Positions 18,643-37,537 of a stretch of DNA of 62,549 nt are shown here, piece by piece. The notes under the pieces are model-generated. The model saw nothing but the letters and a program-made list of their open reading frames with translations, was not told where the DNA came from and did no database searches. Numbering within the stretch: position 1 is the first letter of the stretch; the number at the start of each line of letters is the position of its first letter. The DNA comes from Trinickia terrae. Its GTDB lineage: Bacteria; Pseudomonadota; Gammaproteobacteria; Burkholderiales; Burkholderiaceae. The position numbers and the translations under genes are program-made. The stretch spans positions 1 through 62,549 of the forward strand of contig NZ_SWJE01000027.1 in NCBI RefSeq assembly GCF_005144415.1. The letters run 5' to 3'.

Positions 18643-18734
18643 TTTAGACTGCTCTCAAGTCGTTCCGGGAGGTCCGGTTTTTCCTTTAAAAAACATGGGG
18701 TTATTGTCTGGCGTGTTCTGCTGTGATCCGGGCA

Positions 18735-20087: not shown

Positions 20088-20229
20088 ATTGAATTCCTGA
20101 TGAGCGAGTCGATAAAAGAACTCAGGATGTCTCAATCAGTCCCCATCAGGTAGGCCCAACGAATGACTTTCACAAATACGGTTCTTGAATAAATGATTCG
20201 GCAAGTCCGAATAGTTTAGACAGTTATCC

Positions 20230-21153
20230 TTAACTATCGATGCGTTCCGCGCCGCTACTGGCGGTTCGCAAATCCCGAAACTCGGCCGCCATGTAATCCG
20301 AGAATGCGCGGGCGGACGGCTTCGCGGCTCGGCCCGCCGGAAGCACGACATTGATGTCTGCCGATCCCATCTCCCAATCGGGCAGCACGCGCACCAATCG
20401 GCCTGTTTGCAGATCGTTTGTCACGCTGAGGTCTCCTGTCGAAAGAATGCCGAGCCCGGCGACAGCCGCCGCAACGGCTGCGTCCGTGCCGTTCAGGATA
20501 AATCGTCCCTCGACGCGCACAGAGCGGGTCATTCCGTCACGCCGAAACGCCCATCCTTCCATGACTCGGCCGGCAGGGCTGATGATGGTCGCGTGGTCCG
20601 CAAGATCGCGCGGGACCGACGGGGTTCCGGCCTTGGCCAAGTAAGAGGGCGCTGCAACGACGACACGGCGCACCGTTCCGATTTTGCGAGCAATGGCTGT
20701 GGAATCACTAAGAACGCCAATGCGGACAGCGACGTCGACCGATTCGCCGACAAGATCTTGCCGATCATCATTGAGGACGAATTCCATGCGCAGACCGGCG
20801 TGCTGATCGGTGAAACGCGCTAGACGCGGCAGGACACCACGTATTGCGAAGCCGGAGGATGTGGCGACGCGCAGTAGGCCGCGCAGCTCACCGGTTCCGC
20901 GAGCGGCGTGATCGGCCTCTTCTAGAGCAGCCAGGATGGACTCGATCCGAGACAGATAGTCGGAGCCTGCCTCGGTGAGTGTCACGGCTCGAGTTGTTCG
21001 AACAAAGAGCGCGACGCCGACTTGCTTTTCGAGGGTGGCCACGATCCGTGACGCCGTAGGCTGCGAAATGCCCATCTCGCGCCCAGCAACGGAAAAACTC
21101 CCGTTCCTCGCGACGCGGGCGAACAGTTGCAACGAGAAGAACCTGTCATTCAT
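20230..21153 (-). CDS. LysR-family transcriptional regulator
   Basis: A 307-aa LysR regulator. The N-terminal winged helix (LQLFARVARNGSFSVAGREM and SQPTASRIVATLEKQVGVAL) is followed by a periplasmic-binding-protein-like effector domain. It is of the CrgA/DsdC-like branch. It is divergent from the ene-reductase gene at 21470, and the dienelactone hydrolase lies downstream on the same strand, so it probably controls this redox group. Confidence 0.9.
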   Translation of the reverse strand: MNDRFFSLQLFARVARNGSFSVAGREMGISQPTASRIVATLEKQVGVALFVRTTRAVTLTEAGSDYLSRIESILAALEEADHAARGTGELRGLLRVATSSGFAIRGVLPRLARFTDQHAGLRMEFVLNDDRQDLVGESVDVAVRIGVLSDSTAIARKIGTVRRVVVAAPSYLAKAGTPSVPRDLADHATIISPAGRVMEGWAFRRDGMTRSVRVEGRFILNGTDAAVAAAVAGLGILSTGDLSVTNDLQTGRLVRVLPDWEMGSADINVVLPAGRAAKPSARAFSDYMAAEFRDLRTASSGAERIDS

Positions 21154-21469
21154 TCGGAAATCGCATTTAACAAAGTTGTTTTTTTAGACTACCGCGAATT
21201 CCTGAATAAGCCAATCATTCCATGAAGTTACCCGCGAAACGCCGAACACGAATGAAGAATCCGGCGTGCTTACCATTCCGGCCATCGTCGCCGGGCTGTG
21301 GATATCAGCCATCGGCCGGCATGTCTGGACCCTGACCCGCGCGCTGCGCTCACGCTCGCGATCAACCGGCATGATCTGCGTCGCCGTCATGACCTGCGCG
21401 CCGTTCGAGCTACAGCCTGATCCGGTGAGAGCCTCGAAGAAGCGAAACCATTTTTCCGGAATATCAGCC
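21154..21469. promoter_or_regulatory. Divergent control region, LysR / ene-reductase
   Basis: A 316-base gap between the LysR start and the ene-reductase start. The LysR-proximal 30 bases are AT-rich (TTTAACAAAGTTGTTTTTTTAG at 21166-21187), where a LysR operator and the divergent promoters would be expected. An open frame runs upstream of the ene-reductase here, but it has no homology to the family and I treat it as non-coding. Confidence 0.4.
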
Positions 21470-22570
21470 GTGACCCAATCTAATCAAGCGGTTCTCTTCG
21501 CTCCCTACGCGCTCGGCGAACTTCAACTCAAAAACCGTGTGGTGATGGCGTCTATGACGCGCGGCCGCGCGCGCAATGCCGAACTCGCGCCCACGGAACT
21601 TCATGTCGAATACTATCGCCAGCGGGCGGCGGCTGGCCTCATCTTCACAGAAGGCACCTGGATCAGCCCGCGAGCAATCGGATTCATCAACGCTCCCGGC
21701 CTCTTTACCGAACGTCAGATCGAGGGCTGGCGGGCCGTCACCTCTGCCGTGCATTCCGAAGGCGGGACAATTTTCGCGCAGCTTGCTCATTCCGGGGCGA
21801 TCTCGCATCCCGACTTTTTCGACGGCGAGCTACCCGTTGCCCCGTCCGCAGTTAACCCCGGCCTGAAAGCATTCACAGCTGGAGGGTTCAAGGACACGGT
21901 GACGCCGCGTGCCATGTCGCTTGAAGAAATCGGCTCGACCATCGCCGACTATGGGGCAGCTGCGAAGAATGCCCGGGAGGCCGGCTTCGATGGAGTGGAG
22001 CTGCACGCGGCAGTCGCCTATCTCCTGCCGGAATTCCTCAACAGCACGCTGAATATCCGCGAAGACGCTTATGGCGGCAGCGCAGAGAACCGAACTCGGA
22101 TCGTCCTGGAGGTTCTCGACGCGCTCATCGCGGTCTGGGGACCGGGGCGCGTCGGCATCAAGATCAGCCCGGCGCTGGCAATGGGTGGCTTCGGACTGAC
22201 CGACAAGACGATCGAAACCTACGACTATCTTGTTGACCGTCTCAACGAACTTCCGCTCTCTCACCTTCAGGTCGGCAGAACGCTGGACGATTTGGCGGGC
22301 ACGCCCATCGCCGCCTTGCAGGACACGATCGGCTACTACCGCGCCCGCTTCAACGGCACCTTGATCGCGAACTTCGGCTTTGATGGCGCCTCCGCCAATG
22401 CGGCGATCGAAGACAAGCAGGCCGATCTGGTTTCCTTTGCCAAGCCGTTCATCGGCAATCCCGATCTCGTGCGACGCCTTCGCGAGGGCCTGCCGCTCGC
22501 ATCCTCATCCGCGGAGACTTACTTCCAAGGTGGACCGCAGGGATATGTCGACTACCCCGCCGCTCCCTGA
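21470..22570 (+). CDS. Old yellow enzyme family alkene reductase with altered active-site pair
   Basis: An FMN-dependent ene-reductase of 366 aa in the class of NemA/OYE. It has LFAPYALGELQLKNRVVMA at the N-terminus, MTRGRA, the flavin-binding GLIFTEGTWISP, and the C-terminal phosphate-binding LIANFGFDGASA. The substrate-binding motif normally reads H-x-x-H/N-G-Y; here it is LHAAVAYLLPEFLN, so the second His/Asn is Val while the tyrosine donor remains. The start is GTG 21470, with GGA 10 bases upstream. The family reduces activated C=C bonds such as enones and maleimides. It is probably co-transcribed with the aldo-keto reductase. Confidence 0.88.
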   Translation: MTQSNQAVLFAPYALGELQLKNRVVMASMTRGRARNAELAPTELHVEYYRQRAAAGLIFTEGTWISPRAIGFINAPGLFTERQIEGWRAVTSAVHSEGGTIFAQLAHSGAISHPDFFDGELPVAPSAVNPGLKAFTAGGFKDTVTPRAMSLEEIGSTIADYGAAAKNAREAGFDGVELHAAVAYLLPEFLNSTLNIREDAYGGSAENRTRIVLEVLDALIAVWGPGRVGIKISPALAMGGFGLTDKTIETYDYLVDRLNELPLSHLQVGRTLDDLAGTPIAALQDTIGYYRARFNGTLIANFGFDGASANAAIEDKQADLVSFAKPFIGNPDLVRRLREGLPLASSSAETYFQGGPQGYVDYPAAP

Positions 22571-22696
22571 GGCGACAACCGGCAAACGCGGACGTATCGG
22601 AAGTCAATCCGGCCGCTTTCTATCAAGGCGGCCATGAACGCACCACAACCTATAGCGCAGCGGCGAGCTAGTCTGCAAATCGGAAAGGAGATAGCT

Positions 22697-23683
22697 ATGG
22701 AAATGAGAACGCTTGGTAAAAATGGTCCTCGTGTTTCCGCGATGGGCCTCGGCTGCATGCGGATGTCGAGTTTTGCGGGCCCGAAAACAAGCACCGATGA
22801 GGAGGGTATCGCTACCATTCAAGCTGCCTTGGACTCAGGAATCAATTTCTTGAACACGGGCGACTTTTACGGAATGGGACACAATGAGCTTCTCGTCGGT
22901 AAAGCGATTAAAGGTCGGAGAGACCAAGCGCTTATTAGCGTGAAATTTGGCGCTCTTCGTTCTCCCTCCGGGCAAATGTTGGGCATTGATGTTCGGCCAA
23001 ACGCTGTGAAGAACTTCGCGGCATATTCGCTTCAGCGACTCGGCGTAGATGTCATCGACATTTACCAGCCTGCTCGCATCGACCCGAACGTGCCGATTGA
23101 GGAAACGGTTGGGGCTATCGCCGATCTTATCAAGGAAGGAAAAGTTCGATACCTGGGTTTGTCCGAAGCAGGCGTTGAAAATATTCGGCGGGCTCACAAG
23201 GTGCATCCCGTGACCGCTCTTGAAATCGAGTATTCCCTTGGAACACGTTTCATCGAGGACGCAATCCTACCTACCGTAAGGGAGCTTGGCATCGGGCTGG
23301 TGGCTTATGGGGTGGTCGGTCAAGGGCTTCTTACTGGTTCAGTTACAAACGACATCCCAGCAAACGACTTTCGTCGCCAGTTTCCAAAATTCGACCAGGA
23401 GAACCTTCCGAAGAACCTCGAGAAGGTTTCGCTCCTTGAGCGCATGGCACATGACAAAAACTGTACGACGACACAATTGGCAATAGCGTGGGTGATGTCG
23501 AGAGGTGAGGACATCGTGCCGCTGGTCGGAATGAGTCGTCCCGAACGTGTGGCAGAAAATCTAAGGGCTTGCGACGTGACGCTTACCAAAGAGGATCTCG
23601 ACGATCTCGATCGGACCTTTGCACTGGGAGCAATCACAGGGGACCGCTACCCCGCTCAATTCAAACACCTGGCGGCCGAATAG
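22697..23683 (+). CDS. Aldo/keto reductase
   Basis: A 328-aa NADPH-dependent aldo-keto reductase, AKR13-like. MRTLGKNGPRVSAMGLGCM begins the TIM barrel; the Asp-Tyr pair is in NTGDFYGMGHNELLVG and the lysine in ISVKFG. Where most members have Y-Q-H-R, this one has IYQPARIDPNVP, so the usual tetrad histidine is replaced, as I recall for one subgroup. A strong AAAGGAG precedes the ATG at 22697. Codon use is visibly less GC-rich than in the neighbours, suggesting a different origin from the flanking genes. Confidence 0.9.
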   Translation: MEMRTLGKNGPRVSAMGLGCMRMSSFAGPKTSTDEEGIATIQAALDSGINFLNTGDFYGMGHNELLVGKAIKGRRDQALISVKFGALRSPSGQMLGIDVRPNAVKNFAAYSLQRLGVDVIDIYQPARIDPNVPIEETVGAIADLIKEGKVRYLGLSEAGVENIRRAHKVHPVTALEIEYSLGTRFIEDAILPTVRELGIGLVAYGVVGQGLLTGSVTNDIPANDFRRQFPKFDQENLPKNLEKVSLLERMAHDKNCTTTQLAIAWVMSRGEDIVPLVGMSRPERVAENLRACDVTLTKEDLDDLDRTFALGAITGDRYPAQFKHLAAE

Positions 23684-23813
23684 AAAGGGTGCTCAGTATC
23701 TTCCTCCCTAAAGATGTCGGTCCACGAGGTCCTGCGTTTTCCGTCTCCGACGTAAGGCGTCGGCCCAATGGAACATTGGCGTCGCAACCTACAACTCATG
23801 TATTAGAGGCGAT

Positions 23814-24512
23814 ATGACGGAGATCTCGATCTCGACTCCGCACCACCAGCTCAAAAGCTATCTGGCCACGCCGCAAGGCGAAGGACCATGGCCTGGCGTC
23901 ATCGTGTTTCACGATATCTTCGGCCTGACCGACGTGACGCGTGACCACGCCGATTGGCTGGCCAAGGAAGGATATCTTGCGCTGGCGCCGGACCTGTTCT
24001 CCTGGGGCAGCCGCCTCCGTTGCATCCGTAGCCTGATGATGGATCTGTCTGCAGGCAAGGGAGCGGCGTTCGACGATGTCGACGCTATGCGGCAGTGGTT
24101 GGAAGGTCGCCAGGATTGCACTGGAAAGACCGGGGTCATTGGCTTCTGCGCGACCGGCAAGTTTGCGATTCTTCTGGCGGCTGGCCACGGCTTTTCGGTT
24201 AGCGCCCCGAACTATGGCCCGCTTCCGAACGACATCGATGCGATCATGGGCGGCGCCTGTCCGGTGGTCGCGAGCTACGGTGGCGGCGACTGGACGCTGA
24301 AAGGCGCGGCGGCGCGACTGAAAGGCGCACTCGAGCGGAACGGGATCGAGCATGACGTCAAGGAATACCCGGACGCAGGGCATTCCTTCCTCGACAATCA
24401 CAAAGGCTTGATCGGGGTGCTCGGCGTTGTCATCGGGGCGACTTACAAAGACCAGGCCGCGGCTGACGCGCGAGACCGTATTCGAGCGTTCTTCGCGCGC
24501 CATCTCGCCTAG
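23814..24512 (+). CDS. Dienelactone hydrolase family protein (second copy, divergent)
   Basis: A 232-aa alpha/beta hydrolase of the dienelactone hydrolase family: VIVFHDIFGLTDVTRDHADW at the N-terminus, the cysteine nucleophile in GVIGFCATGKFA (where the family usually has G-x-C-x-G-G), and the histidine in DAGHSFLDNHKG. It is clearly not a recent duplicate of the gene at 19395-20087. It follows the aldo-keto reductase by 130 bases in which I see no gene. Confidence 0.85.
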   Translation: MTEISISTPHHQLKSYLATPQGEGPWPGVIVFHDIFGLTDVTRDHADWLAKEGYLALAPDLFSWGSRLRCIRSLMMDLSAGKGAAFDDVDAMRQWLEGRQDCTGKTGVIGFCATGKFAILLAAGHGFSVSAPNYGPLPNDIDAIMGGACPVVASYGGGDWTLKGAAARLKGALERNGIEHDVKEYPDAGHSFLDNHKGLIGVLGVVIGATYKDQAAADARDRIRAFFARHLA

Positions 24513-24544
24513 CACTACGTTGTGTGTTGCTGGAGATAACCATC

Positions 24545-24802
24545 ATGAAGCCGTTTTGCATCGCAGCGGCCCTCGTTTTACTCAACGCGGGCTGTGCCTC
24601 AACATGGTCGCCCGCGACTAATCAGACCGGTGGGCTAAGTCCGGCCGATAGGGACATCTTCGTTCTGCACACCACCGACGATGCGACGCTCGGCGACTCG
24701 TCAAAACTATCGAGGCTCACTGTCGGTGTTGGCTATCCCGATACGCAATTGATTTTGCCGTGGTTCCTCAATGACACGATCAACTTTGTAAACTATCGCT
24801 AG
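24545..24802 (+). CDS. Small putative secreted protein or lipoprotein
   Basis: An 85-aa open frame with a hydrophobic signal-like N-terminus (KPFCIAAALVLLNAGC). The cysteine at residue 17 is in a poor lipobox (N at -3), so lipidation is uncertain. The remainder (SPADRDIFVLHTTDDAT, LPWFLNDTINFVNYR) matches no family I know. It lies 32 bases after the hydrolase, with TGGAGA upstream of the ATG, so it could be the last gene of that operon. Confidence 0.5.
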   Translation: MKPFCIAAALVLLNAGCASTWSPATNQTGGLSPADRDIFVLHTTDDATLGDSSKLSRLTVGVGYPDTQLILPWFLNDTINFVNYR

Positions 24803-24838
24803 TTGTTCAGCGTGTCGCGTGTCCCGGGTCTCGGTGTC

Positions 24839-25762
24839 CTAGTCAGGGCCGGCACCAGCTGTTGCAGACGGTTTCAGCAGGGAAATCAGGATTTCCTTTG
24901 CGAGTCGCGCGGCCTCCATCGGCAACGGCGTGCGAGGCCGCTTGACGGGCGTGATCATTGAGAGGGTAACTTCGATTTGCGGCGAGACAATCCTTTGCCA
25001 ATGCAGCGAGGGATGGTCACCGGGCCGAAGAGAATTGAGCGGCATCACCGTGTAGCCTATTCCACGCTCGACAAGTTCTATGATCGAGCGTACCGAGTCT
25101 ATCTCGAGTGCCGTTGTCAACATGATGCCCAGCCGTGCAGCTTCAAACTCCAGCAGCGACCGGGTCGCAGTGGAAGCGTGCGGCATAATCAATGGGATTC
25201 GCGCAAGCTCGCTCAGCGTGACCTCACTCGTCGAAGTGCCTATCGGATTTAAGCCAATCAAGTAAAGGTTATCCGTGGCGATGGGTTCTATGACAAGGTT
25301 AGGTGATGCAGCAGGATTGACGAGGATTGAAAAGTCGAGACCTCCTACCAGCACCTGTTCATACAACGATCGCGAATAGCCCTCGACGAGACTCAACGAT
25401 GCTTTGGGAAATCGTTCGACAAAGCGTTCGACGAACGACGGTATCAAAGTTCGCCCAACGCTCGGCGTAAAGCCTGCGACCACCTGTCCCTCATAGGCGG
25501 ATGTACCTTCTTCCTTTAGCGCTATCAGTGCGGTGTCGGCAGCGTGAAGGACGCCGCGAGCGTGATCGAGAAACCGTCGGCCCGCCGGCGTCAGAATGAC
25601 GCCGCGCCCGTTCCTCGAGAAGAGAGATGTCTTGAGTTCAACCTCGAGAGCTCGGACATGTCTGCTGAGGGTGGGTTGCGCAATCTCCAAAACGTCAGAC
25701 GCCTTGCCGACGCTGCCCAATTCCGCGATGCGAACGAAATAGCGAAGCTGCTTGATGTCCAT
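24839..25762 (-). CDS. LysR-family transcriptional regulator, probable regulator of the catabolic cluster
   Basis: A 307-aa LysR protein. The start at 25762 (MDIKQLRYFVRIAELGSVGK) is preferred over an upstream ATG because this is the standard LysR N-terminus. The helix-turn-helix (AQPTLSRHVRALEVELKTSL) is followed by an effector domain with FVERFPKASLSLVEGYS, resembling the NAC/CbbR-like branch. It lies downstream of the MFS and flavin reductase genes on the same strand, bounding the catabolic cluster, so control of that cluster is a reasonable inference. Confidence 0.88.
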   Translation of the reverse strand: MDIKQLRYFVRIAELGSVGKASDVLEIAQPTLSRHVRALEVELKTSLFSRNGRGVILTPAGRRFLDHARGVLHAADTALIALKEEGTSAYEGQVVAGFTPSVGRTLIPSFVERFVERFPKASLSLVEGYSRSLYEQVLVGGLDFSILVNPAASPNLVIEPIATDNLYLIGLNPIGTSTSEVTLSELARIPLIMPHASTATRSLLEFEAARLGIMLTTALEIDSVRSIIELVERGIGYTVMPLNSLRPGDHPSLHWQRIVSPQIEVTLSMITPVKRPRTPLPMEAARLAKEILISLLKPSATAGAGPD

Positions 25763-25937
25763 GATGGGTAAAAGGTCCGATTCTTGTAATCGATATGCTC
25801 GCGACCATGAGGATAGTGCGTCGGCAATCGGCACGCCAACCCAGGATTCAATCATACAAGAAGCCGCTTTTGCCGGTTGCGCCCCGAGGCCGCCGGCAAA
25901 ATGCGAGGCCCGCAGCGGAGCGGCACTCCGCTACTTG

Positions 25938-25970
25938 AAGGATCCGCGCCGGCGTCGCGCGGATCCTTTT
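25938..25970. terminator. Hairpin between MFS gene and LysR gene
   Basis: An 11-bp perfect stem (AAGGATCCGCG at 25938-25948 with 25958-25968) with a 9-base loop and a TTTT run on the plus-strand side. Both flanking genes are on the minus strand, where the hairpin follows the MFS stop codon but lacks a good T-tract. It is terminator-like, of uncertain direction. Confidence 0.5.
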
Positions 25971-25973
25971 CGT

Positions 25974-27332
25974 TCAGAACGTGGACGTGCCGTCGATACC
26001 GCTCGAACGGTCGCCTGCGGGTTCGCTGGGAACATCGGGGCTGGTTTTGACGACAAACGCGATGACAGCGGATCCGCACACAAGTAGTACCGCCATGATG
26101 TACAAGCCGATATCGAATCTCCCGGTCGTCGTCTTCACCCACCCGATGATGAAGGGGCTCAGAAATCCTCCGATTTGACCGACAGAGTTGATCAACGCGA
26201 TCCCGCCGGGGGCCGAAGATCGCGGAAGCAACGTCATCGGAACAGAAAATAGAATCGGCATCGCGCTAAAGACCGATATCGTTGCGATGGTCAACGAAAG
26301 AAGGGTGAGCGGAAGACTGGACCACACGAATGAAAGCGAACCGAGGGCAACGGCGCCCGCCAACGCGCAACCCGTGGCATGCCAGCGGCGCTCCAGTGTG
26401 CGGTCGGAATGACGGGAGAGGAGCAGCATCCCCACTGCACCAAGACCGTACGGAATGATGGACCATAGGCCGATTGCCGATGCTGAGCCGACGCCTGCAT
26501 GCCGAAGCATCAGCGGAAGCCAGAACGAAATGACATACGTACCGCAGATGATCGTGAACCAGCCGAATGCGATTGCGTAGACATTGGGGTCGCGAAATGC
26601 GCCGCCAACACCGCCTCGCCCCCGGCGATTCCCACCGGACGCTCCGGCGATCACGATCCGTCGCTCGCCGTCCGAAAGCCACCGAGCCTGATCCGGTCCA
26701 TCCGGCAGGCTCCGAAGGCATACCAGCCCCAGCAGCACGGACGGTATCCCTTCAATTAGAAAGAGCCATTGCCAGCCGCGCAGCCCTTGAATGCCGGAAA
26801 CCGTGTCGAGGATGAAGCCGGAAATGGGTGCGCCGAAAAGCCCGGCGATAATACTGCCGCTCAGGAAGAGCGCGGTCACCCTGGCGAGTCTTTGTTTCGG
26901 ATACCAGAGCGTTAAATAGAAGACGACGCCGGGTGTCAATCCCGCTTCGAATATTCCCAGCAGGACGCGCAAAGCGTAGAACATGCCGGGTGTGCGGACG
27001 AACATCATGCAACTTGACGTCACTCCCCAGCAGATCATGATTCGGGCGAGCGTGCGCCGCGCTCCCACTCGCTGCAAAAGCAAATTGCTCGGTATCTCGA
27101 AGGCGAGGTAGCTCGCGAAAAAGATACCTGCGCCCAATCCGTAAACGGCGTCGGTGAATCCCAAATCCGACTTCATTTGCAAGGCGGCGAAACCGATGTT
27201 GATGCGATCGAGATACGCAAATATGTAGCCAAGAAGGACCAACGGAAAGATTCGCCATCCGATGCGCGAATAGACTTGCGTTTCATCACTTGATGGCGCG
27301 TGCGCGATGGTCGGCGCTGAGCTGTTTGCCAT
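25974..27332 (-). CDS. MFS transporter, anion:cation symporter (ACS) type
   Basis: A 452-aa major facilitator with 12 predicted helices. LVLLGYIFAYLDRINIGFA in helix 1 and ASYLAFEIPSNLLLQRVGAR in helix 2 are hallmarks of the ACS family, which carries organic anions such as phthalate, tartrate and other carboxylates. The ATG at 27332 is preferred because GGAGA lies just upstream; another ATG at 27344 lacks this. Its position beside CoA-transferase and beta-oxidation genes suggests it imports the acid degraded by that operon. Confidence 0.88.
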   Translation of the reverse strand: MANSSAPTIAHAPSSDETQVYSRIGWRIFPLVLLGYIFAYLDRINIGFAALQMKSDLGFTDAVYGLGAGIFFASYLAFEIPSNLLLQRVGARRTLARIMICWGVTSSCMMFVRTPGMFYALRVLLGIFEAGLTPGVVFYLTLWYPKQRLARVTALFLSGSIIAGLFGAPISGFILDTVSGIQGLRGWQWLFLIEGIPSVLLGLVCLRSLPDGPDQARWLSDGERRIVIAGASGGNRRGRGGVGGAFRDPNVYAIAFGWFTIICGTYVISFWLPLMLRHAGVGSASAIGLWSIIPYGLGAVGMLLLSRHSDRTLERRWHATGCALAGAVALGSLSFVWSSLPLTLLSLTIATISVFSAMPILFSVPMTLLPRSSAPGGIALINSVGQIGGFLSPFIIGWVKTTTGRFDIGLYIMAVLLVCGSAVIAFVVKTSPDVPSEPAGDRSSGIDGTSTF

Positions 27333-27432
27333 GAATGTCTCCATATTTACGGCAATTGAGGATAGCTCGGGCTTTACTTTTCGACTTCGATAGCCGTTGT
27401 TTCCCTTTTGAGCGGTGCGTCCGTGGACGGCT

Positions 27433-28083
27433 TCATGTAGTCAGCGTGTCTTGCGTCCGGCAATAGCTTCTTCCCGCAATTCGGCCCAACGGACGCAGTA
27501 CGTCGTGATTCACCCTGTGCCCCTCGCGAACGCCTTGTGCGCAGTGAACCAGGACGACTTCACCGACGAGCAGCGTTGTGCGCGAATCCGGCGCGCCGAA
27601 TTCGTGATGCTCGTGCAAACGGCATTCAAATTGGAGGGGCGACTCGCTGATTCTTCGGGGAAGGACCGTAACAGACGGCAGCGTGCTGAATCCGACCTCG
27701 TCGACCTCGCTGACCGTCGACGGATATTCGAGCGCGCATCGCTGCACCTGGTCTGCCATTTCGTCCGATACCACGTTGATGACGAACTGGCCGGAACGCA
27801 GCACGTTGTGCACCGTGTCCTTGTACCCTCGGGGAAGGGTCTGGGCGACGATGCCCAGTAGTGGAGGCGTGACACTGAGGATCACGAACTGACTGAACGG
27901 GGCGGCGTTCAGAACGCCTTCGTCATTCTGTGACGTGACAAGCGCGATGGGTCGAGGGACGACGGAGCCGGTGAGAAATTTGTAGCGGCTCTCGTGGGTG
28001 AAATCGAGGAGGTCGACCGTTTCGTAGGATGAATGGACCATAAGACTCTGAAGAGCTGAGTTAGGTTGAATCGCTTCCACCAT
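27433..28083 (-). CDS. Flavin reductase-like (FMN-binding split barrel) protein
   Basis: A 216-aa protein of the DIM6/NTAB flavin reductase group: SVVPRPIALVTSQNDEG, NAAPFSQFVILSVTPPLLGI and YKDTVHNVLRSGQFVINVVS are the FMN-binding segments. Members supply reduced flavin to two-component monooxygenases or act alone. No partner oxygenase is present in the window. It is divergent from the CaiB operon and probably shares its control region. Confidence 0.85.
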   Translation of the reverse strand: MVEAIQPNSALQSLMVHSSYETVDLLDFTHESRYKFLTGSVVPRPIALVTSQNDEGVLNAAPFSQFVILSVTPPLLGIVAQTLPRGYKDTVHNVLRSGQFVINVVSDEMADQVQRCALEYPSTVSEVDEVGFSTLPSVTVLPRRISESPLQFECRLHEHHEFGAPDSRTTLLVGEVVLVHCAQGVREGHRVNHDVLRPLGRIAGRSYCRTQDTLTT

Positions 28084-28461
28084 TGGCGGTAGCTGACATC
28101 CTAGGCAGTGAGGCCGATCCCAACAAGAACAGAACTTTTCTATCTGTTATGTCTTTTTTTGACCGCTCTTACGGGCGAGGTTGCGCCGGCTGCAGCAGCG
28201 ACGCATCGATATTCCGCGGATTTCATGTGCCCCACCGTGCAGTGACTCTCATCGCACATGCATATCAGAAAGAAAGCTTTCGTTCTTGTTCCGCTACAAC
28301 GGTAGGCATAACGTTCGAGACGAAAGCGTTGGCCGCCACTGGCTTGATTGCCGGCCTTTGATAGGACGGCCCGCGCCTTTATCGGATCGTGCTCAATCAT
28401 CGCGTGTGCTAGCCGGACTGTTTCCAGGCACACGTCAGCAAGGTAGAGAAAAGGCATCTGC
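28084..28461. promoter_or_regulatory. Divergent control region of the catabolic cluster
   Basis: A 378-base gap between the flavin reductase (minus) and the first CoA-transferase (plus). It is AT-richer than its neighbours near 28120-28160 and contains no recognisable gene; a short open frame at 28083-28361 has no family resemblance. This is the likely site of LysR binding, but I could not pick out an operator. Confidence 0.4.
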
Positions 28462-29748
28462 ATGGACGACAAAGCGAGTAGTCATCGCGCCGGAAGTCGC
28501 GATGGGTTGGAGACGCCCGCCGCGCTCGAGGGGCTCAAGGTATTAGACATGTCCGGGCTTGCCGGACAGTATTGCGGGAAGCAGTTCTCGGATCTCGGCG
28601 CGGACGTGATCCTTGTCGAACCACTCAACGGGTCCAATGTACGTTACCAAGGACCGTTCCTCGACAACCACATTCATCCCGAATTCAGCCTCTCCTTTAC
28701 GTATTTCAATGCTGGGAAGAGGAGCCTCTGTATTGACCTCGATCGGCCGGAAGGCCAGCGCATTTTCGTCGAGCTCGTCAAGCGGTCGGACCTTCTGATC
28801 GAATCTGAAAAGCCGGGTGTGATGGCAAGGCGCGGCCTGGACTACGCTTCACTCGCATCTGTCGCCCCTGGCCTCGTCATGACCAGCATCACCCCTTTCG
28901 GGCAGTCCGGGCCGTATTCGAACTACGAGTCCGAGGACATCGTGGCCCTCGCGCTCGGCGGAATGCTCTATCTCGGCGGTTATCCGGATAGCCCCCCGAT
29001 CGCTGCGCACGGAAACCTGGCCTATCTCGCCGCTGCGCAATTTGCCTCCGTCGCGTCGATGATTGCCCTCTTCGGTCAAACCGAAGCGCTGGGACATGAA
29101 AGCGGTTCGCACATCGACGTGTCGATCCAGGAGTGCGTGGTAATGGGAATGGAAAACGCCATTCAGTTCTACGACCTGGAACGCGTGGTGCGCAAGCGGG
29201 AATCCGGTCAGCTGAAAATGGCGGGAACCGGTGTCTTCGAGTGTGCGGATGGCCAAATCTACCTGATGGCCGGCGGTATCGCGTCGGCGCGATTTTGGGA
29301 GTCGACAGTGCAATGGCTGATCGATGATGGTTTCCCCGAAGCGGCGAGACTGCTCGATGACCAATGGAAGGATCATGACTATCTGATCACCGACGAAGCT
29401 AAAAATCTCTTTTACGAACTATTCGTGCCGTTCGCCAAGAAGCACAGCAAGGCCTGGCTGTATCAATCCGGTCAGGAGCGCCGCATCCCGGTCTGCCCAA
29501 TCAGTACGCCAAAAGACATTCTAGAGAACCGGCAGTTCGAATACAGAGATTTCTTCAGCTCGATAAAGCACTTACCGTCCGAGAGGAGCATCGTTGCTCC
29601 GGGTGCGCCGTATCGACTTTCCGAAACACCGTGGCGTGCACCGTCGCATGCACCGCTCATGGGTCAGCATACGGATGAAATTCTTGCCGACCTCGGATAT
29701 AGCAGGGCAGATCGTGTGGCGCTACAACAGGCAGGAGTTTTGAAGTGA
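28462..29748 (+). CDS. CaiB/BaiF (class III) CoA-transferase, first subunit/paralogue
   Basis: A 428-aa family III CoA-transferase. LEGLKVLDMSGLAGQYCGKQ starts the fold, FSDLGADVILVEP and TYFNAGKRSLCIDLD bind CoA, and the conserved catalytic aspartate lies in HIDVSIQECV. These enzymes move CoA from one acyl-CoA to a free acid. A second, dissimilar paralogue follows with overlapping stop and start, so the two may form a heteromer, as the BbsE/BbsF subunits of benzylsuccinate CoA-transferase do. The substrate is not known. Confidence 0.9.
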   Translation: MDDKASSHRAGSRDGLETPAALEGLKVLDMSGLAGQYCGKQFSDLGADVILVEPLNGSNVRYQGPFLDNHIHPEFSLSFTYFNAGKRSLCIDLDRPEGQRIFVELVKRSDLLIESEKPGVMARRGLDYASLASVAPGLVMTSITPFGQSGPYSNYESEDIVALALGGMLYLGGYPDSPPIAAHGNLAYLAAAQFASVASMIALFGQTEALGHESGSHIDVSIQECVVMGMENAIQFYDLERVVRKRESGQLKMAGTGVFECADGQIYLMAGGIASARFWESTVQWLIDDGFPEAARLLDDQWKDHDYLITDEAKNLFYELFVPFAKKHSKAWLYQSGQERRIPVCPISTPKDILENRQFEYRDFFSSIKHLPSERSIVAPGAPYRLSETPWRAPSHAPLMGQHTDEILADLGYSRADRVALQQAGVLK

Positions 29749-30965
29749 AAAATCTTCCTCTTGAAGGCATTCGGATTGCCGACTTCACGTGGATCGGCGC
29801 GGGTTCGTTTACGACCAAACTCTTCGCAGATCACGGTGCGGATGTCATAAAAATCGAGAGCGCGGATCGTCTTGATCCGCTACGCGGCAGCCGACCGTAT
29901 GCAGAGGGCGTGCCTGGCATCAATCGGAGTGGATACTTCGCAGATCGCAACAGCAACAAGAAAAGCATCACGCTGAACCTCAAGACCGCTGAGGGACAGG
30001 CGCTTGCTCGGCAACTGATCGAGACGAGTGACATCGTTGCAAATAATTTCACGCCGGGGACGATGGAGAAGTTTGGCCTCGGCTACGAAGACGTGAAGAA
30101 GATTCGTCGCGACGTCATCTATCTGGCCATGTCGATGGCAGGATCCTCCGGCCCGGAGCACAAGTATCTTGGATTCGGCCTGACAATCGGCGCACTGACT
30201 GGAGTTCAGTTTCTCTCCGGACTTCCGGACAAGGAGCCGGCTGGCACAGGGACAAACTTTCCGGACCATATTCCGAATCCATGCCACGCCGCATTTGCGG
30301 TGTTGGCGGCTTTGCGTCATCGCCGGCGCACGGGGCGGGGGCAGTACATCGACGTGGCGCAGACCGAGCCGACTGTCGCCCTCCTGGGTCCTACGATGAT
30401 GGATTGCGCAGCGAACGGCAATGTGCCCAGTCGGATGGGTAATCAGCACACGGCTTATGCGCCGCATGGCGTGTATCCCTGCCGTGGCGTGGACCGATGG
30501 ATAGCCATATCGGCGTGGCAGGAAGAGGCATGGAAAGGCCTTGTCGCAGCGCTTCCTGAAGCGGACGCTTTGCGCGCGACAAAATTCTCGGCATTACACG
30601 ATCGCCTGGCGAACCGCGACGACCTGGACGTAGCACTGGCGCACGCGACCAGCCGCTACGAAGCGGAGGACCTGATGGCGAAGCTGCAGAATCATGGCGT
30701 GCCTGCTGGAGTAGCCTGGACTGCAGAAGATGTCGTGGAGCACGATCATCAGTTGCAACATCGAGGTCATTGGATCCGGCTGCAGCACCCCGAAATGGGT
30801 GAGGCAATCTACAACGCACCGCCATTTCGCATCAGTGGACACGCTGAAACCATCCGCTTGCCGGCGCCGCTATTGGGCCAGCATACGGACGAGATCTGTC
30901 GGGACGTTTTCGGCATGGATGAAGCTGAAATTGCCGGCTTGCGCCAAAACGGAGTGTTGACGTGA
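29745..30965 (+). CDS. CaiB/BaiF (class III) CoA-transferase, second subunit/paralogue
   Basis: A 406-aa class III CoA-transferase: LEGIRIADFTWIGAGSFTTK, FADHGADVIKIESADR, and the conserved Asp in GQYIDVAQTEPTVALLG. The GTG start overlaps the previous stop (GTGA) and its own stop overlaps the next gene in the same manner. Similarity to its neighbour is only family-level. Acting as the second subunit of one enzyme or as a separate transferase are both possible. Confidence 0.9.
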   Translation: MKNLPLEGIRIADFTWIGAGSFTTKLFADHGADVIKIESADRLDPLRGSRPYAEGVPGINRSGYFADRNSNKKSITLNLKTAEGQALARQLIETSDIVANNFTPGTMEKFGLGYEDVKKIRRDVIYLAMSMAGSSGPEHKYLGFGLTIGALTGVQFLSGLPDKEPAGTGTNFPDHIPNPCHAAFAVLAALRHRRRTGRGQYIDVAQTEPTVALLGPTMMDCAANGNVPSRMGNQHTAYAPHGVYPCRGVDRWIAISAWQEEAWKGLVAALPEADALRATKFSALHDRLANRDDLDVALAHATSRYEAEDLMAKLQNHGVPAGVAWTAEDVVEHDHQLQHRGHWIRLQHPEMGEAIYNAPPFRISGHAETIRLPAPLLGQHTDEICRDVFGMDEAEIAGLRQNGVLT

Positions 30966-32377
30966 CGACGACACGGCCTTCCACGAGCGAGATGCTCGCG
31001 AAATTCGCCTACTCATTCGACCCGTCCACAGTCAATGATGAGCACCTTCGGACGTGCGCCAGGGCGATTACGGATACATACGCAGTGTGCATGGCCGGCG
31101 CAAACGAGCTAGCGGCAGTACGCATGCGCAAGTACATCTACGGCTTGGCTCTTGGCGCCGGTGGTGAACAACAACTCGGCTATGGAGCCGCTCGCCTGTG
31201 GGGGCGGGGCATTGCGACGACGGTAGAGTGCGCAGCACTTCTGAATGGCACGTCCGCCCATGTGCTGGACTTCGACGACGCCTCATCGTCGATGGGGGGG
31301 CATCCGAGTGTAGCGTTGCTGCCGGCGCTGATTGCGTTGGCTGAGTGGCGGGATATCAGCGGTTTGCGGCTGGCCAGCAGCTATGTGGTCGGCTATGAAA
31401 TCGCAAGCAAACTGGGTAGCGCGCTCAGTAAAGCGCACTACGATCGCGGATGGCATATGACTTCCTCGATTGGGACAATCGCCGCCGCCGCCGCATGTGC
31501 GCATCTATTGGAATTGGAGTTCGACCAGACCGTTTCAGCGATTGGTCTTGCCGTGTCCCAAGCTGCCGGAACACGTCAAAACTTCGGCTTCGACGCAAAG
31601 TCGTTTCAGGCCGGCCAGTGTGGTGCGGCGGCACTGCGCGCCACGCTGCTTGCCGAGCAGGGTTTTACGGCATCTCCGCTTGCGATGGATGGTGAGGCCG
31701 GCTACACGTCCTTGTATTCGAAGTCGGAAGACATCTCGCAGGCGATGCTCACGCTGAATACAGCGCCACTTGAGATCGATCGTGCGGGGGTGGAGATAAA
31801 GAAGTATCCGGCCTGTTACGCAGTCCATCGGCCGCTGGATGGCCTGTTCCAGGTCAAGCGAGAGTTTGGTATTCGGCTGGACGACGTCGAATCAATTTAC
31901 ATCAAGACGAGTTACGGGACGCTATCCCCCCTATTGCGACGCTTGCCCGAGAACGGCGTCGAGGGGAAGTTCAGCATGGAATATGTGATTGCGGCGGCTC
32001 TGGAAGACAACGAGATTCGTCTCTCCACATTTACCGATGAAGCGGTGCGTCGACCGCGACTCCGAAAGGTCATGGCTTCCGTGAAATCCATCGAATCGCC
32101 CGGCGAGATCACGCCGCGTTGGGCAGAAATATCGGTGCACATGAAAGACGGGCGCCAGCTATCACAGCGTATCGACGCGCTCCGCGGCGACGCCTCCAAT
32201 CCGCTTTCCGATGACGACTTGCTCGCAAAAGTTTCGGATTGTCTTGCATGGGCGGGCAGTCCGATCGAAGCCGCAAAGCTCTATCGAGGCGCGAAGCTGA
32301 TCAGGACTGGCAGCGTGCGCGAAGTCTTGAACGCGATCGAGAGCACACAAGTTTTACCGGAAAGAGGTATCAGATGA
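30962..32377 (+). CDS. MmgE/PrpD family protein
   Basis: A 471-aa protein of the MmgE/PrpD fold, which includes 2-methylcitrate dehydratase and cis-aconitate decarboxylase. GTSAHVLDFDDASSSMGGHPS carries the conserved Asp/His segment; KSFQAGQCGAAALRATLLAEQGFTA and the C-terminal IKKYPACYAVHRPLD are also family motifs. The GTG start overlaps the CoA-transferase stop. No citrate-synthase-like gene is present, so a methylcitrate cycle is not indicated. It more likely adds or removes water, or decarboxylates, on a tricarboxylic or dicarboxylic intermediate. Confidence 0.88.
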   Translation: MTTTRPSTSEMLAKFAYSFDPSTVNDEHLRTCARAITDTYAVCMAGANELAAVRMRKYIYGLALGAGGEQQLGYGAARLWGRGIATTVECAALLNGTSAHVLDFDDASSSMGGHPSVALLPALIALAEWRDISGLRLASSYVVGYEIASKLGSALSKAHYDRGWHMTSSIGTIAAAAACAHLLELEFDQTVSAIGLAVSQAAGTRQNFGFDAKSFQAGQCGAAALRATLLAEQGFTASPLAMDGEAGYTSLYSKSEDISQAMLTLNTAPLEIDRAGVEIKKYPACYAVHRPLDGLFQVKREFGIRLDDVESIYIKTSYGTLSPLLRRLPENGVEGKFSMEYVIAAALEDNEIRLSTFTDEAVRRPRLRKVMASVKSIESPGEITPRWAEISVHMKDGRQLSQRIDALRGDASNPLSDDDLLAKVSDCLAWAGSPIEAAKLYRGAKLIRTGSVREVLNAIESTQVLPERGIR

Positions 32378-33150
32378 GCATTCTTTATGAAGTGAAGGAT
32401 TCTGTAGCGACCATCGTCCTCAATCGACCGGAGGCGATGAATTCGCTCGACCCGGAGTCGCTCGTGGAGTTGAACAACGCATTTGATATCGCCAATCGAG
32501 ACGAAAGCGTTCGCGTTGTCGTGCTGACGGGCAACGGTGACAAGGCGTTTTGCACAGGATCCGATCTGAAGAAGACCATGCCGCCCAAAGAAAGCTTCGC
32601 GGAGCTCACGTTTGGGAAGCCGCGGTGGCTCTATCCATTCGCCGGAATGGAAATCGACAAGCCGATGATCTGTGCTGTGAACGGCTTTGCGCTTGCCGGA
32701 GGCATGGAGCTCGCGCTGGCGTGTGACATTCGGATCGCTTCCAGCAACGCCCAGTTCGGGCAATCGGAAGTGTGTGTCGGAAGTATTCCGGCTGCGGGTG
32801 GAACCCAACGTCTTCCCAGGATGGTGGGGATGTCGGACGCCATGCTGATGATGTTGACCGGTGATCGAATCGACGCGGAAACCGCCCTGCGGATCGGCCT
32901 CGTGAGCCGGGTGGTGCCGCTGGCGAGTCTGATGGACGAAGCGATGAAAATCGCCCGACGGATTGCCGACAATGCGCCGCTGGCTGTTCGGGCCGTGAAG
33001 CGGCTCGTACGCGATGGTCTTGACTTGCCCCTGCTGACAGCCATTCAAGCAGAGCAGTTCGCACTCGGTTTGCTTCGCGATACCGAGGATCGTCTGGAAG
33101 GACGGCGTGCCTTCCAGGAGAAACGCAAGCCCGTATTCGCAGGCAAGTAG
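32374..33150 (+). CDS. Enoyl-CoA hydratase/isomerase family protein
   Basis: A 258-aa crotonase. VATIVLNRPEAMNSLDPESL opens the fold; the oxyanion-hole segments are FCTGSDLKK and NGFALAGGMELALACDIRIA. Of the two acidic residues used by hydratases, the first position is occupied by Glu in SEVCVGSIPAAGGTQRLPR. The ATG overlaps the stop of the PrpD gene (ATGA). In context it would hydrate the enoyl-CoA formed after CoA activation. Confidence 0.9.
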   Translation: MSILYEVKDSVATIVLNRPEAMNSLDPESLVELNNAFDIANRDESVRVVVLTGNGDKAFCTGSDLKKTMPPKESFAELTFGKPRWLYPFAGMEIDKPMICAVNGFALAGGMELALACDIRIASSNAQFGQSEVCVGSIPAAGGTQRLPRMVGMSDAMLMMLTGDRIDAETALRIGLVSRVVPLASLMDEAMKIARRIADNAPLAVRAVKRLVRDGLDLPLLTAIQAEQFALGLLRDTEDRLEGRRAFQEKRKPVFAGK

Positions 33151-33175
33151 CGGGTGCAAGCACTTTGGAGGCGCG

Positions 33176-34357
33176 ATGAGACAGGTAGTTGTAGCAGGTA
33201 TTGGGCAGACGGTATTTGGCAAATTTTTGCACCGCGGGGTGCGATCGCTGGCCGAGGAAGCGCTGTCTTCCGCTATCGCCGATTCCGGTATCGGCTACGA
33301 GCAAATAGATGTGACGTATTTCGCGAATGCGCTGTCGGGGTTGGTGACAGGACAGGAAACGATTCGAGGACAGGTCGCGCTGCGTAATACCGGCGTGATG
33401 GGGCGTCCGATCATCAATGTCGACAACGCATGCGCATCCGGATCGACAGCGTTTCATCTGGCATGGCTATCGGTCGCGTCCGGTCAGGCAGATGTGGCCT
33501 TGGCTATCGGGGCGGAGAAGCTGACACATGAAGATAAATCCGTGACCTTCGGGGCGTTCGCCTCCGGCGTGGATGTCGAGGAGCGTGCGCGACTTCAAAT
33601 GGAAGCGCCTCAAGGGCACTCGGTATTTATGGACATTTACGCGGAGAGGGCGCGCCGCTACATGGAATTCAGCGGCGCTACGCCCAAGGACTTTGCCCTT
33701 GTCTGCGTCAAGAGCCGGCAGGCTGCGTCGATGAACGAATGGGCGCAGTTTCGTTCGCCGGTGACAGTTGACGAGGTGCTAGGCAGCCGCATGATCAGTG
33801 CGCCGCTGACGCTCAACATGTGCTCGCCGATTGCCGACGGTGCGGCGGCGGCCATTCTGGTAAGCGAGGAGTTCGCGCAACGTGCTGGCGCGCCGCACGT
33901 ATATGTCAAGGCATGCGCGCTTGTTTCCGCAAACAAGGACGGCCTTGGTCCGACGTGTGCGGAAAGAGCGGCGAAGGCTGCTTACGATACCGCGGGATTG
34001 GGTCCCGAAGATATCCATGTCGCAGAGGTTCACGATGCTTCGGCTGCCGCCGAGATCATGCTGTACGAACGACTCGGATTCGCCGCACCCGGAAGGGGAG
34101 TCAGCTTGCTGCGCGCAGGCGACACGTCTGTCGGCGGGCGGCTTCCAGTGAATCCGGGGGGAGGTCTCTTGAGCCGCGGGCACCCCGTCGGGGCCACCGG
34201 AATTGCACAGATCATCGAGCTCACGACCCACTTGCGAGGGACGGCTGGCGCGCGTCAGAGGGAAGGGGCGAAGGCAGCACTGGCCGAGTGCTCCGGTGGG
34301 CAGCTCGGTGCCGATTCGGCACTCGCGGCGGCGACGATACTCACCAACTTCAAATGA
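33176..34357 (+). CDS. Thiolase family protein (SCP2/lipid-transfer type)
   Basis: A 393-aa thiolase of the SCP2-thiolase branch. The nucleophilic cysteine is in NVDNACASGSTAF, the HDAS motif of this branch is in VAEVHDASAAAE, and GHPVGATGIAQI and CSGGQLGADSA follow. Many relatives need a DUF35 zinc-ribbon/OB partner; none is encoded nearby. TTGGAGG precedes the ATG at 33176, 25 bases after the crotonase gene. It would release acyl-CoA products at the end of the pathway. Confidence 0.88.
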   Translation: MRQVVVAGIGQTVFGKFLHRGVRSLAEEALSSAIADSGIGYEQIDVTYFANALSGLVTGQETIRGQVALRNTGVMGRPIINVDNACASGSTAFHLAWLSVASGQADVALAIGAEKLTHEDKSVTFGAFASGVDVEERARLQMEAPQGHSVFMDIYAERARRYMEFSGATPKDFALVCVKSRQAASMNEWAQFRSPVTVDEVLGSRMISAPLTLNMCSPIADGAAAAILVSEEFAQRAGAPHVYVKACALVSANKDGLGPTCAERAAKAAYDTAGLGPEDIHVAEVHDASAAAEIMLYERLGFAAPGRGVSLLRAGDTSVGGRLPVNPGGGLLSRGHPVGATGIAQIIELTTHLRGTAGARQREGAKAALAECSGGQLGADSALAAATILTNFK

Positions 34358-34466: not shown

Positions 34467-35593
34467 GGCCCGTTGCAAGCGGCTCGCGGTCATCAAAAAA
34501 CTCACTCGCCCTACCGCGTTGTGTTGACGGGCACACCACTGGAAAACAAGGTAGAGGAACTCATCTCCATCGTTCAGTTCGTCGACCAGCATCGTCTCGG
34601 ACCCACCTGGAAGCTGCTGCATGAGCATCAGATCAGGGACGAGGCTGGGCGCGTGACAGGGTACGCCGGACTGGAGACGATCAGCCAGACACTGGCGCCG
34701 ATCATGATTCGTCGGCGCAAGTCCGAGGTGCTGCTTCAATTGCCGAAGCGTACTGACCAGAATCTGCTGGTGCCGATGACCGAGCGGCAGATGGACTATC
34801 ACGTGGAGAATGCGGACGTCGTGGCCCGGATCGTCCAGCGCTGGCGTAAAACGAAATTTTTGTCGGACCGCGACCAGCGAAGACTCACATGCGCGTTGCA
34901 GAACATGCGGATGTCGTGCAACAGCACCTATCTGCTGGATCGGGAGACCGATCACGGCGTCAAGGCTGATGAGTTGGCTGCCCTGTTCGAAACCCTGCTT
35001 GCCGAGCCTGACGGGAAAGCGGTGGTGTTCAGCCAATGGACGCGCACGCATGAGATCGTCATTCGCCGGCTCGAGAAACTCGGCATTGGCTATGTCAGCT
35101 TCCACGGTGGCGTGCCGTCGGACCAAAGGCCTGCGCTGGTGGATAGATGGGAGAAATCTCGCTCGGCGGCCCACGTCTCACCCGCTTCATGAAGGACGTT
35201 GAAAGCGTTACAGGCCACATGGGCGAGATCGAGGCAATGGCCACGGAGGAAGAAGTCGCCAACGCTGCTGCCGCGTCTGGCGAATTGCCCGAGGACATGA
35301 CGACCGCGCAAGCGAATATCGTCGAGGCGCGGGCGCACTCCGGCATCCCGGCCGCTGAGCCCGTGCCGCAAGAGGCGCGCGTTGACCCTTGGTCCGGGCT
35401 GTTGCAGTTCGGCGTGGAGCTTGCGTCGGCGTTGAGCGCGTCCGCCGAGGGGATGGCGGATGCTCATCCGTGGGTCGACCGTGACCCCGCGACAGGCGCG
35501 CAGAGTCTCAAGTTACCGCTGCCGTCGGCGGGTACCGCTAGGCGACTTGCCGATGCGCTGTCTGCAATTTCGTCTGCGTTGCGCGTGAAATGA
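34467..35593 (+). pseudogene. Relic of a SNF2-family DNA helicase (5' truncated, internal deletion)
   Basis: Starting near 34467 in mid-gene, the frame reads SPYRVVLTGTPLENKVEEL (SNF2 motif III), IMIRRRKSEVLLQLPKRTDQ, NMRMSCNSTYLLD and AVVFSQWTRTHEIVIRRLEK, VSFHGGVPSDQRPALVDRW (motif IV region). At about 35147 homology jumps, in another frame, to SLGGPRLTRFMKDVESVTG, the region just after the second RecA lobe, then a C-terminal tail to a TGA at 35593. Motifs I, Ia, II, V and VI are gone. The 5' cut and the internal deletion leave no helicase activity. Similar SNF2 proteins occur in phage-defence islands, but I cannot name the system. Confidence 0.8.
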
Positions 35594-35605
35594 CGGATTC
35601 CATGA

Positions 35606-36294
35606 CTAGGTGAGCGTCAGCTCGTCGAGCGCCGCTCTGACCCACCCGAATCCCCCCGCTCCTGCTCGAGCCGCAGCCCTTGGCGGATTCGGTTATCGCG
35701 CAGGTCGTCGAAGAGCTCCCGCTCTTGTGCCGTGAGTCGCGGCAGATCGCGTGTGACCTGATTGCCTTCTTCTCCCCAGAACGCTTCGTGTGTCATCAGC
35801 GTCGCACGATCCATCAAGAACGACCCGGCGTGCGGGAAGCGGCTGCGCAATTGGTCGAGAATGGCGAAGCCGTGTGTGTCGATGTCGCCCCAGTAATGAA
35901 GCGCACAATCCGTGAGCCATCGAGCTGGCTCCAGTGATTCCCAGCCGTAACCCGCTCCGAACAGCACGATCGATTGTGGAACGTCCGGGAATGCCAGGAA
36001 ATTCGTCTCGTTTTCCGTAATGAAGGCATGCCGGCACTGCAGCGCGAGGCGCGAGAAACTGTCCGCGTCGAGTGCAATGTCCGGCCGCCACACGCCGGGC
36101 AGAAGGACTAGTCGCTCGTCGAGAATGCGAAACCGGATACGAGACGGTTTTTCGCGGAAGCCGTAACGAGCGGAGAACTGTGCAGTGCCGGTCCGGTCGC
36201 CGTCGACTGCCTCGGGTGGTAGCACGAGATCGAGCCATTGCGTGAGCACGCCACGCCGCGCCTCGATGAACTTCGTGTCCACCAACGGAATTTC
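35606..36294 (-). pseudogene. jetD: Wadjet JetD relic (DUF3322/DUF2220), C-terminal portion
   Basis: JetD is the Toprim-domain nuclease subunit of the Wadjet plasmid-defence SMC complex. The remaining ~225 codons run from EIPLVDTKFIEARRGVLTQW (DUF3322) through IVLFGAGYGWESL to HYWGDIDTHGFAILDQLR, the Toprim-like metal site of DUF2220, and LTAQERELFDDLRDNR near the end. The first part of the gene is missing, fused to jetC sequence. In the present frame it stops at 35617. One extra base in the G run at 35652-35657 (C on the plus strand) would restore FGWVRAALDEL, and the frame would then stop at 35606, so a one-base loss also broke the C-terminus. Confidence 0.82.
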
Positions 36295-36296
36295 AA

Positions 36297-36464
36297 TTCG
36301 AGGCCGAACTGATAGGCAAGGCTCGCCGCGAGGATCGTGTAGGCGAGCTTCTCCTTTTGCCCGCCCGATTTGCCCCCAGAGTCGGAATAGTGTTCGAATT
36401 CGCTGTCGTCCTCGCGCCAGCGCTCGCTCGCCGCGAAGAGGAACCAGTTGCGCACGTCGGTCAG
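36297..36464 (-). pseudogene. jetC: Wadjet JetC relic (SMC-like ATPase, C-terminal signature fragment)
   Basis: About 56 codons read LTDVRNWFLFAASERWREDD, SEFEHYSDSGGKSGGQKEKL, AYTILAASLAYQFGLE. The SGGQKEK segment is the ABC signature of the JetC SMC-like subunit. In an intact operon this lies near the end of a protein of over 1000 residues. Upstream it is joined directly to the start of jetA and downstream to the middle of jetD, so it is a short island between two deletions. Confidence 0.8.
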
Positions 36465-36556
36465 CTGACGGCAAGCGGCGCGTGGTCGGAGCGCAATAGG
36501 CGCCAGGCGGGATGGCGCGTGCGCAGCGCGTCGAGGGTGGAGTAATCGAGGGGCAT
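36461..36556 (-). pseudogene. jetA: Wadjet JetA relic (DUF3375), N-terminal fragment
   Basis: From ATG 36556 the frame encodes 31 residues, PLDYSTLDALRTRHPAWRLL then RSDHAPLAVS, followed by TGA. This is the beginning of the DUF3375/JetA kleisin subunit. The stop results from the fusion to jetC sequence, which continues in another frame. A 21-codon open frame (36556-36621) precedes it with a TGATG stop-start overlap and could be the tail of, or a leader for, the former operon; I do not recognise it. Confidence 0.75.
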
Positions 36557-36736
36557 CAGTGCGAGATGACGGGCGTGGCGCCCTTGAGGCGATCGCCGAC
36601 TGAGGCTTGAAAGGCCTTCATCCTACCGCAATTGCCACCCGACTTCGCCGGGCCCCGCGCTGGGACGAGTCTGACGGTATCGACGCCGCGTGACCGGGTG
36701 GGAACGCCGTCCCCACAAGGCTCCAGCCGATGGATT

Positions 36737-36750
36737 GACGATCGAGTGGG
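36737..36750 (+). repeat. Right attachment-site repeat (attR)
   Basis: This is the second perfect copy of the 14-mer found at the end of guaA (18624-18637). It lies between the Wadjet relic and a strong terminator, at the point where accessory genes give way to thpR. The 372-base gap 36557-36928 otherwise holds no recognisable gene. Confidence 0.7.
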
Positions 36751-36818
36751 GAACGAACTTCAGCGGCGAGGCCGAGACGGTATTCTTCGATATCCGATCG
36801 CGGCATCACATGATGCAA

Positions 36819-37528: not shown

Positions 37529-37537
37529 GGACTCAAT

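Follow-up and report, generated by a model that had tools for sequence, protein, structure and literature searches.

The minus strand of a 62,549-nucleotide contig of Trinickia terrae (NZ_SWJE01000027.1; this whole stretch is referred to below as the window) carries, within 951 b, coding sequence resembling three of the four genes of a Wadjet plasmid-defence operon, which raises the question of whether anything at this locus still works and, if not, how and when it was lost. We conclude with high confidence that the locus is what two deletions have left of a type I Wadjet (jetABCD) operon, that it no longer functions and that it is contained in an insertion at guaA. The remnant is a case of ordinary, if unusually readable, gene decay.

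Remnants of jetA, jetC and jetD and their junctions

The scraps of type I Wadjet genes are joined as jetA-jetC-jetD across window positions 36556-35606 on the minus strand, the order and strand given by an earlier, sequence-only reading of this DNA. The pieces and their junctions are as follows:

36466..36556, minus strand: jetA remnant, start codon and 31 codons (PADLOC JetA1, E = 3.4e-8, profile positions 1-27 of 480)
36463..36466, minus strand: jetA/jetC deletion junction, 4.95 kb gone, about 1 b of microhomology
36296..36466, minus strand: jetC remnant of about 56 codons with the ABC signature in their midst (PADLOC JetC1, 4.2e-32, profile positions 981-1032 of 1123)
36295, minus strand: jetC/jetD deletion junction, 760 b gone relative to loci L033 and L034 (see below), no microhomology seen
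35606..36294, minus strand: jetD remnant, beginning at residue 166 and reaching the 3' end (PADLOC JetD1, 8.5e-90, profile positions 168-373 of 391)

These PADLOC scores exclude chance resemblance. They confirm the jetA start, which is also evident from the sequence, and the ABC-signature segment of jetC, both of which the sequence-only reading had named; its third piece, the last two thirds of jetD, is present but shorter than claimed, keeping residues 166 to ~391 of 401 (about 56%) with the first ~41% gone. The profile searches proposed in that reading gave a divided result: besides the PADLOC matches, Pfam SbcC_Walker_B (2.6e-13, jetC piece) and JetD_C (1.2e-52, jetD piece) scored above their curated cut-offs, whereas DUF3375 (E = 0.00067) and DUF3322 (E = 0.00034, cut to profile positions 168-190 of 190) fell below theirs. 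The jetA remnant is closed by a stop codon created at the deletion junction. The jetC piece carries SGGQK, which we take to be the ABC signature, and stops short of what are presumably the Walker B residues. The jetD remnant retains the Toprim part, has lost most of the N-terminal DUF3322 part and, in comparison with L033, bears one single-base frameshift close to its 3' end.

A DNA search with window positions 35000-37600 matched some part of this region in 22 of 100 genomes, that of T. terrae included. Genomes G044 (locus L033) and G026 (locus L034) each have a complete type I operon, where the three remnant pieces stand apart, and the four proteins of L033 match, respectively, DUF3375, DUF4194, AAA_29 with SbcC_Walker_B, and DUF3322 with JetD_C. 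The remnant shares the gene order of both operons, and its pieces are 82-94% identical to them in DNA: 87% over 170 b (L033) and 84% over 219 b (L034) for the jetA start and its upstream region, and, against L033, 94% over the 171 b of the jetC piece and 88% over 676 b of the jetD piece (35620-36294). A scan of named organisms provided the best 80 of 551 stretches encoding a relative; the closest among the matches listed were Paraburkholderia tuberum (86% amino acid identity), Burkholderia sp. Bp8963 (84%) and P. humisilvae (84%). In all seven operons compared (G044, G026, P. tuberum, Bp8963, P. humisilvae, P. silviterrae and P. oxyphila; L033, L034 and L091-L095), jetABCD occur in the same order without internal stop, each gene as one unbroken match. 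The rare stops in these matches lie before the likely jetA or jetB start, positions that were placed by eye, or at the natural end of jetD.

Measured against these seven operons, two internal deletions have reduced 6.7 kb to 951 b, in agreement with the earlier claim of at least two. The 4.95 kb deletion runs from jetA codon ~32 to jetC codon ~998 and includes all of jetB; the 0.76 kb deletion runs from jetC codon ~1056 to jetD codon ~165, leaving at position 36295 a single base that neither side accounts for. The comparison also bears out that jetB and most of jetA and jetC are gone. The short direct repeats for which a search had been suggested are absent from both operon junctions in the comparison with the seven relatives, only 0-1 b being shared, and both deletions would thus represent illegitimate, repeat-independent events.

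The ancestry of the locus is plain, as its pieces are colinear with all seven operons and their best PADLOC models are JetA1, JetC1 and JetD1. What a functional type I system would contain is largely missing: 31 codons are left of JetA (DUF3375); the gene for JetB (DUF4194) falls within the larger deletion; about 56 signature codons represent a JetC SMC protein with Walker A, signature and Walker B; and JetD keeps JetD_C with a reduced DUF3322 and a frameshifted 3' end. Compared with the G044 and G026 operons, the locus lacks jetB, the N-terminal part of jetD and most of both jetA and jetC, so that a Wadjet complex cannot form. All four subunits are required to suppress plasmid transformation in Bacillus subtilis, according to a review (PMC10586767).

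The surrounding insertion at guaA

The remnant lies at the right end of a larger island, which the sequence-only reading had not described and whose features are listed here from left to right:

17059..18642, plus strand: guaA (GMP synthase), open reading frame of 527 aa, its 3' end holding the left attachment core (18624-18637)
18723..19226, plus strand: tyrosine integrase remnant, arm-binding part only (Pfam Arm-DNA-bind_3, E = 7.2e-5, 23.3 bits against a cut-off of 27)
19395..34357, no single strand assigned: catabolic gene block of long open frames (ORFs and Pfam)
34503..35141, plus strand: SNF2 helicase remnant, middle part (Pfam SNF2-rel_dom, 3.4e-18), left edge putative
35150..35593, plus strand: SNF2 helicase remnant, C-terminal tail, past a deletion of ~0.27 kb (35150-35562 with 68-69% DNA identity to L034 and L091)
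36671..36680, plus strand: CTGACGGTAT repeat, fused at the right end (comparison with P. tuberum and G026)
36737..36750, plus strand: right attachment core GACGATCGAGTGGG, a copy of the guaA 3' end, followed by flanking chromosome with a LigT gene

The plus strand of the window holds the 14-b attachment core GACGATCGAGTGGG just twice: at 18624, in the guaA 3' end, and at 36737. All 10 genomes searched have a match to the 3' half of guaA (17800-18642), with 78-92% identity, and in G049 and G013, which belong to another genus of the family, guaA directly abuts sequence homologous to 36737 onward, LigT included. LigT was not found beside guaA in the stretches examined of the same-genus genomes G001 and G002, nor guaA beside a homologous LigT in those of G043, G057 and G025. 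From the duplicated core and this uninterrupted site, known from another genus, we read ~18643-36750 (18.1 kb) as an insertion in the guaA 3' end. A full-length integrase is missing from it; the remaining arm-binding domain matches a 429-aa integrase beside guaA in genome G040 (tblastn E = 1.4e-11, 37% over 98 aa).

About 15 kb of catabolic genes separate the integrase remnant from that of the SNF2 helicase. By Pfam the block encodes a dienelactone hydrolase, two LysR regulators, an OYE-type oxidoreductase, an aldo/keto reductase, an MFS protein, a flavin reductase, a CoA-transferase III, an MmgE/PrpD protein and a thiolase; two further genes were recognised by eye only, one for a second CoA-transferase (29745-30965), the other for an enoyl-CoA hydratase (in 32239-33150). 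The G+C content of the block is 0.584, lower than the 0.649 of the window outside the island. P. tuberum (L091) has the integrase, the SNF2 gene and jetDCBA side by side, uncollapsed, between two sequences ~12.3 kb apart that each differ from the attachment core by one base, and a hipA unit adjoins. The C-terminal part of the integrase and the N-terminal part of the SNF2 protein have probably given way to the catabolic block, and a mobile defence island would have turned into a fixed catabolic one in which defence and mobility genes decayed.

Beyond the two operon deletions, further breaks affect the SNF2 gene and the right end of the island. The SNF2 gene lacks the first ~369 of 826 codons and has the internal deletion of ~0.27 kb; its middle part, from 34509, is 83% identical in DNA over 633 b to both L034 and L091, and its C-terminal tail gave no Pfam or PADLOC match of its own. 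At the right end, the loss at the fused CTGACGGTAT repeat amounts to ~0.18 kb relative to P. tuberum, or to 1.9 kb including hipBA relative to G026, and probably ran through this 10-b direct repeat. A deletion of hipBA, suggested by G026 alone, became less likely in view of P. tuberum, where the jetA upstream region and the attachment site are only ~0.18 kb apart and hipA belongs to a neighbouring unit. P. tuberum and G026 differ, and the number of events at the SNF2 gene and the right end, as well as their order, varies with the relative that is taken to resemble the ancestor.

Further copies of CTGACGGTAT lie near the ends of guaA islands (window 18816 and 36671; L034 3446, 13287, 15053 and 15192) and are perhaps integrase arm sites. 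An SNF2 helicase gene adjoins jetABCD in G026 (L034 3946-6426) and P. tuberum (L091 10777-13254), and in Burkholderia ambifaria (L104 1582-3720) one matching residues 1-713 of 826 lies by jetABCD in another arrangement; it is possibly a recurrent Wadjet neighbour.

The T. terrae genome (7.24 Mb in 72 contigs, scored 100% complete) yielded no match to DUF3375 or DUF4194 in profile searches of all contigs, and its single matches to JetD_C, SbcC_Walker_B and the full JetC query are the remnant itself. A jet copy elsewhere in this genome is rejected on these searches, and the operon is very probably dead. As an aside, SbcC_Walker_B (PF13558), for which the jetC scrap is the sole match here, matched in 12 of 14 control genomes, and the same-genus genomes G001 and G002 gave no DUF3375, JetD_C or jetC match.

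That the assembler collapsed or misjoined an intact operon is very unlikely. The genome is a draft in 72 contigs, of which the window is one entire contig, and the junctions are those of a single assembly; they hold, however, no repeats long enough to mislead an assembler and, in a genome scored as complete, no further DUF3375, DUF4194, jetC or JetD_C match turned up. Moreover, the adjoining SNF2 gene and the integrase are broken as well, and the jetD piece bears a frameshift of its own.

Age of the loss and the remaining jetD frame

Substitutions in the remnant were polarised with G026 as the one outgroup and G044 as the sister branch, leaving 39 changes on the window branch; the count omits 12 sites at which all three differ (6, 5 and 1) and the frameshifted final 65 b of jetD. 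The window branch has 28 synonymous (S) and 11 nonsynonymous (N) changes (jetD 24 S/11 N, jetC 2 S/0 N, jetA 2 S/0 N), the sister branch 29 S and 14 N (jetD 22 S/11 N, jetC 1 S/1 N, jetA 6 S/2 N). Neutral change at the same composition would be 71-75% N, and at 72% the probability of 11 or fewer N among 39 is 1.8e-8. Since the window-branch substitutions are mostly synonymous, the collapse looks young: most of the divergence from the G044 operon would have arisen while the genes still worked, with a bound on the share of post-loss changes of 23-39%, according to the rates that are assumed. The SNF2 piece differs from G026 at 24, 14 and 70 first, second and third codon positions, respectively, a count that does not distinguish the changed branch. 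An ancient fossil is rejected by this pattern, and the age implied by the word "fossil" in the earlier reading is not borne out.

The same pattern could be taken to mean that the jetD remnant is translated and kept by selection as a stand-alone Toprim protein, encoded by the 285-aa frame 36474-35617. That frame is open, motifs that we take to be the Toprim acidic motifs remain readable in it, the jetD changes on the window branch are mostly synonymous, and JetD-only or JetD-truncated loci occur elsewhere. Yet the jetC and jetA scraps, which together have 4 S and no N changes (a small number), are likewise free of N change, which fits recency rather than selection on jetD. The frame would, furthermore, start at a TTG within the jetA scrap and cross the jetC scrap out of frame, the N-terminal part is gone and a frameshift affects the 3' end. 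According to a review, artificially high concentrations are needed for JetD alone to cut DNA (PMC10586767). We therefore give this explanation very little credence and retain recent decay of a type I Wadjet operon.

Broken Wadjets and guaA in other genomes

Loci holding JetD only, besides the window, are G051 (residues 264-390), L158 (145-388; an open 272-aa frame, but with just ~0.6 kb to the contig start) and L135 (JetD 1-388, no jetABC match within ~9.5 kb upstream). They would be expected if Wadjet operons repeatedly released the C-terminal (Toprim) part of JetD and this part persisted as a solitary nuclease, a generalisation that we regard as highly improbable, its odds being lowered by two loci. 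L165 counts against it with a partial JetD (141-390) interrupted by an in-frame stop. A jetC scrap from the signature region in G040 (L042 8924-9350, contig C11) spans residues 939-1080 across two overlapping frames, frameshifted and with stops, and makes a second Wadjet remnant, independent of the first; DUF3375 and JetD_C gave no match in that genome, so plain decay leaves other scraps too.

Clear partial remnants among the 17 JetD_C rows in 100 genomes are the window and G051; the match in contig C16 of G091 sits at the contig start. Nine of the best 80 of 551 named loci lack jetA or jetC, six of them (L125, L140, L159, L160, L162 and L167) explained by a contig end and the remaining three being L158, L165 and L135. 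Broken Wadjets are thus not rare among the relatives examined, in searches that mostly used JetD as bait and so favoured loci with JetD. A partial JetD_C match in G045 was rejected as a remnant, for it is part of a divergent full-length JetC1/JetD1 pair adjoining guaA (L080 904-5750); DUF3375 gave no match there, JetA being absent or too divergent.

Incomplete Wadjets and guaA-flanked defence islands are both already in print, and the remnant is a well-resolved further instance that, as a molecular system, contributes nothing new. Passages of the respective papers report jetA/jetC pseudogenes in Xylella fastidiosa (PMC9148166), Wadjet I without jetD in Stenotrophomonas maltophilia (PMC11680222) and a spontaneous jetABCD deletion in Clostridium cellulovorans (PMC12287153), in which, as here, the operon was lost by mutation or deletion. 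In contrast to these, both internal junctions and the surrounding island are readable here nearly to the base. The locus thus offers a clean example of the loss of anti-plasmid defence, through two repeat-free deletions caught early enough for junction mapping against intact relatives, and it was named in none of the titles and abstract openings listed by literature searches on Wadjet remnants and guaA islands.

The niche beside guaA is shared with defence island #13 of S. maltophilia, which lies between guaA and pgrR (PMC11680222), and with ICERspD18B (PMC7775301); unlike these, the present island joins integrase, SNF2 and Wadjet remnants with a catabolic block. Within the family, guaA adjoins the Wadjet island in G026, lies 16 kb from jetABCD in G044, and appears in the flanks (at most 10 kb, some cut by the contig) of 3 of the best 80 named loci (L094, L111 and L147). 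These cases point to the guaA 3' end as a recurrent Wadjet neighbour in the family, which could serve to measure gain and loss of plasmid defence.

Three minor observations concern other genomes. The guaA island of G040 (L085 3691-17920), next to guaA and an integrase, contains GajA and GajB (Gabija) and a 1917-aa protein matching PADLOC PDC-S37/Hhe. G064, with no DUF3375 or JetD_C match, encodes a JetC-like protein (L020 1255-3162; 54% over residues 506-1136). Finally, a weak, sub-cut-off DUF3375 match in G053 (C1:144483-144572; profile positions 3-32, 20 bits, in a 90-aa frame) is possibly another jetA-start remnant.
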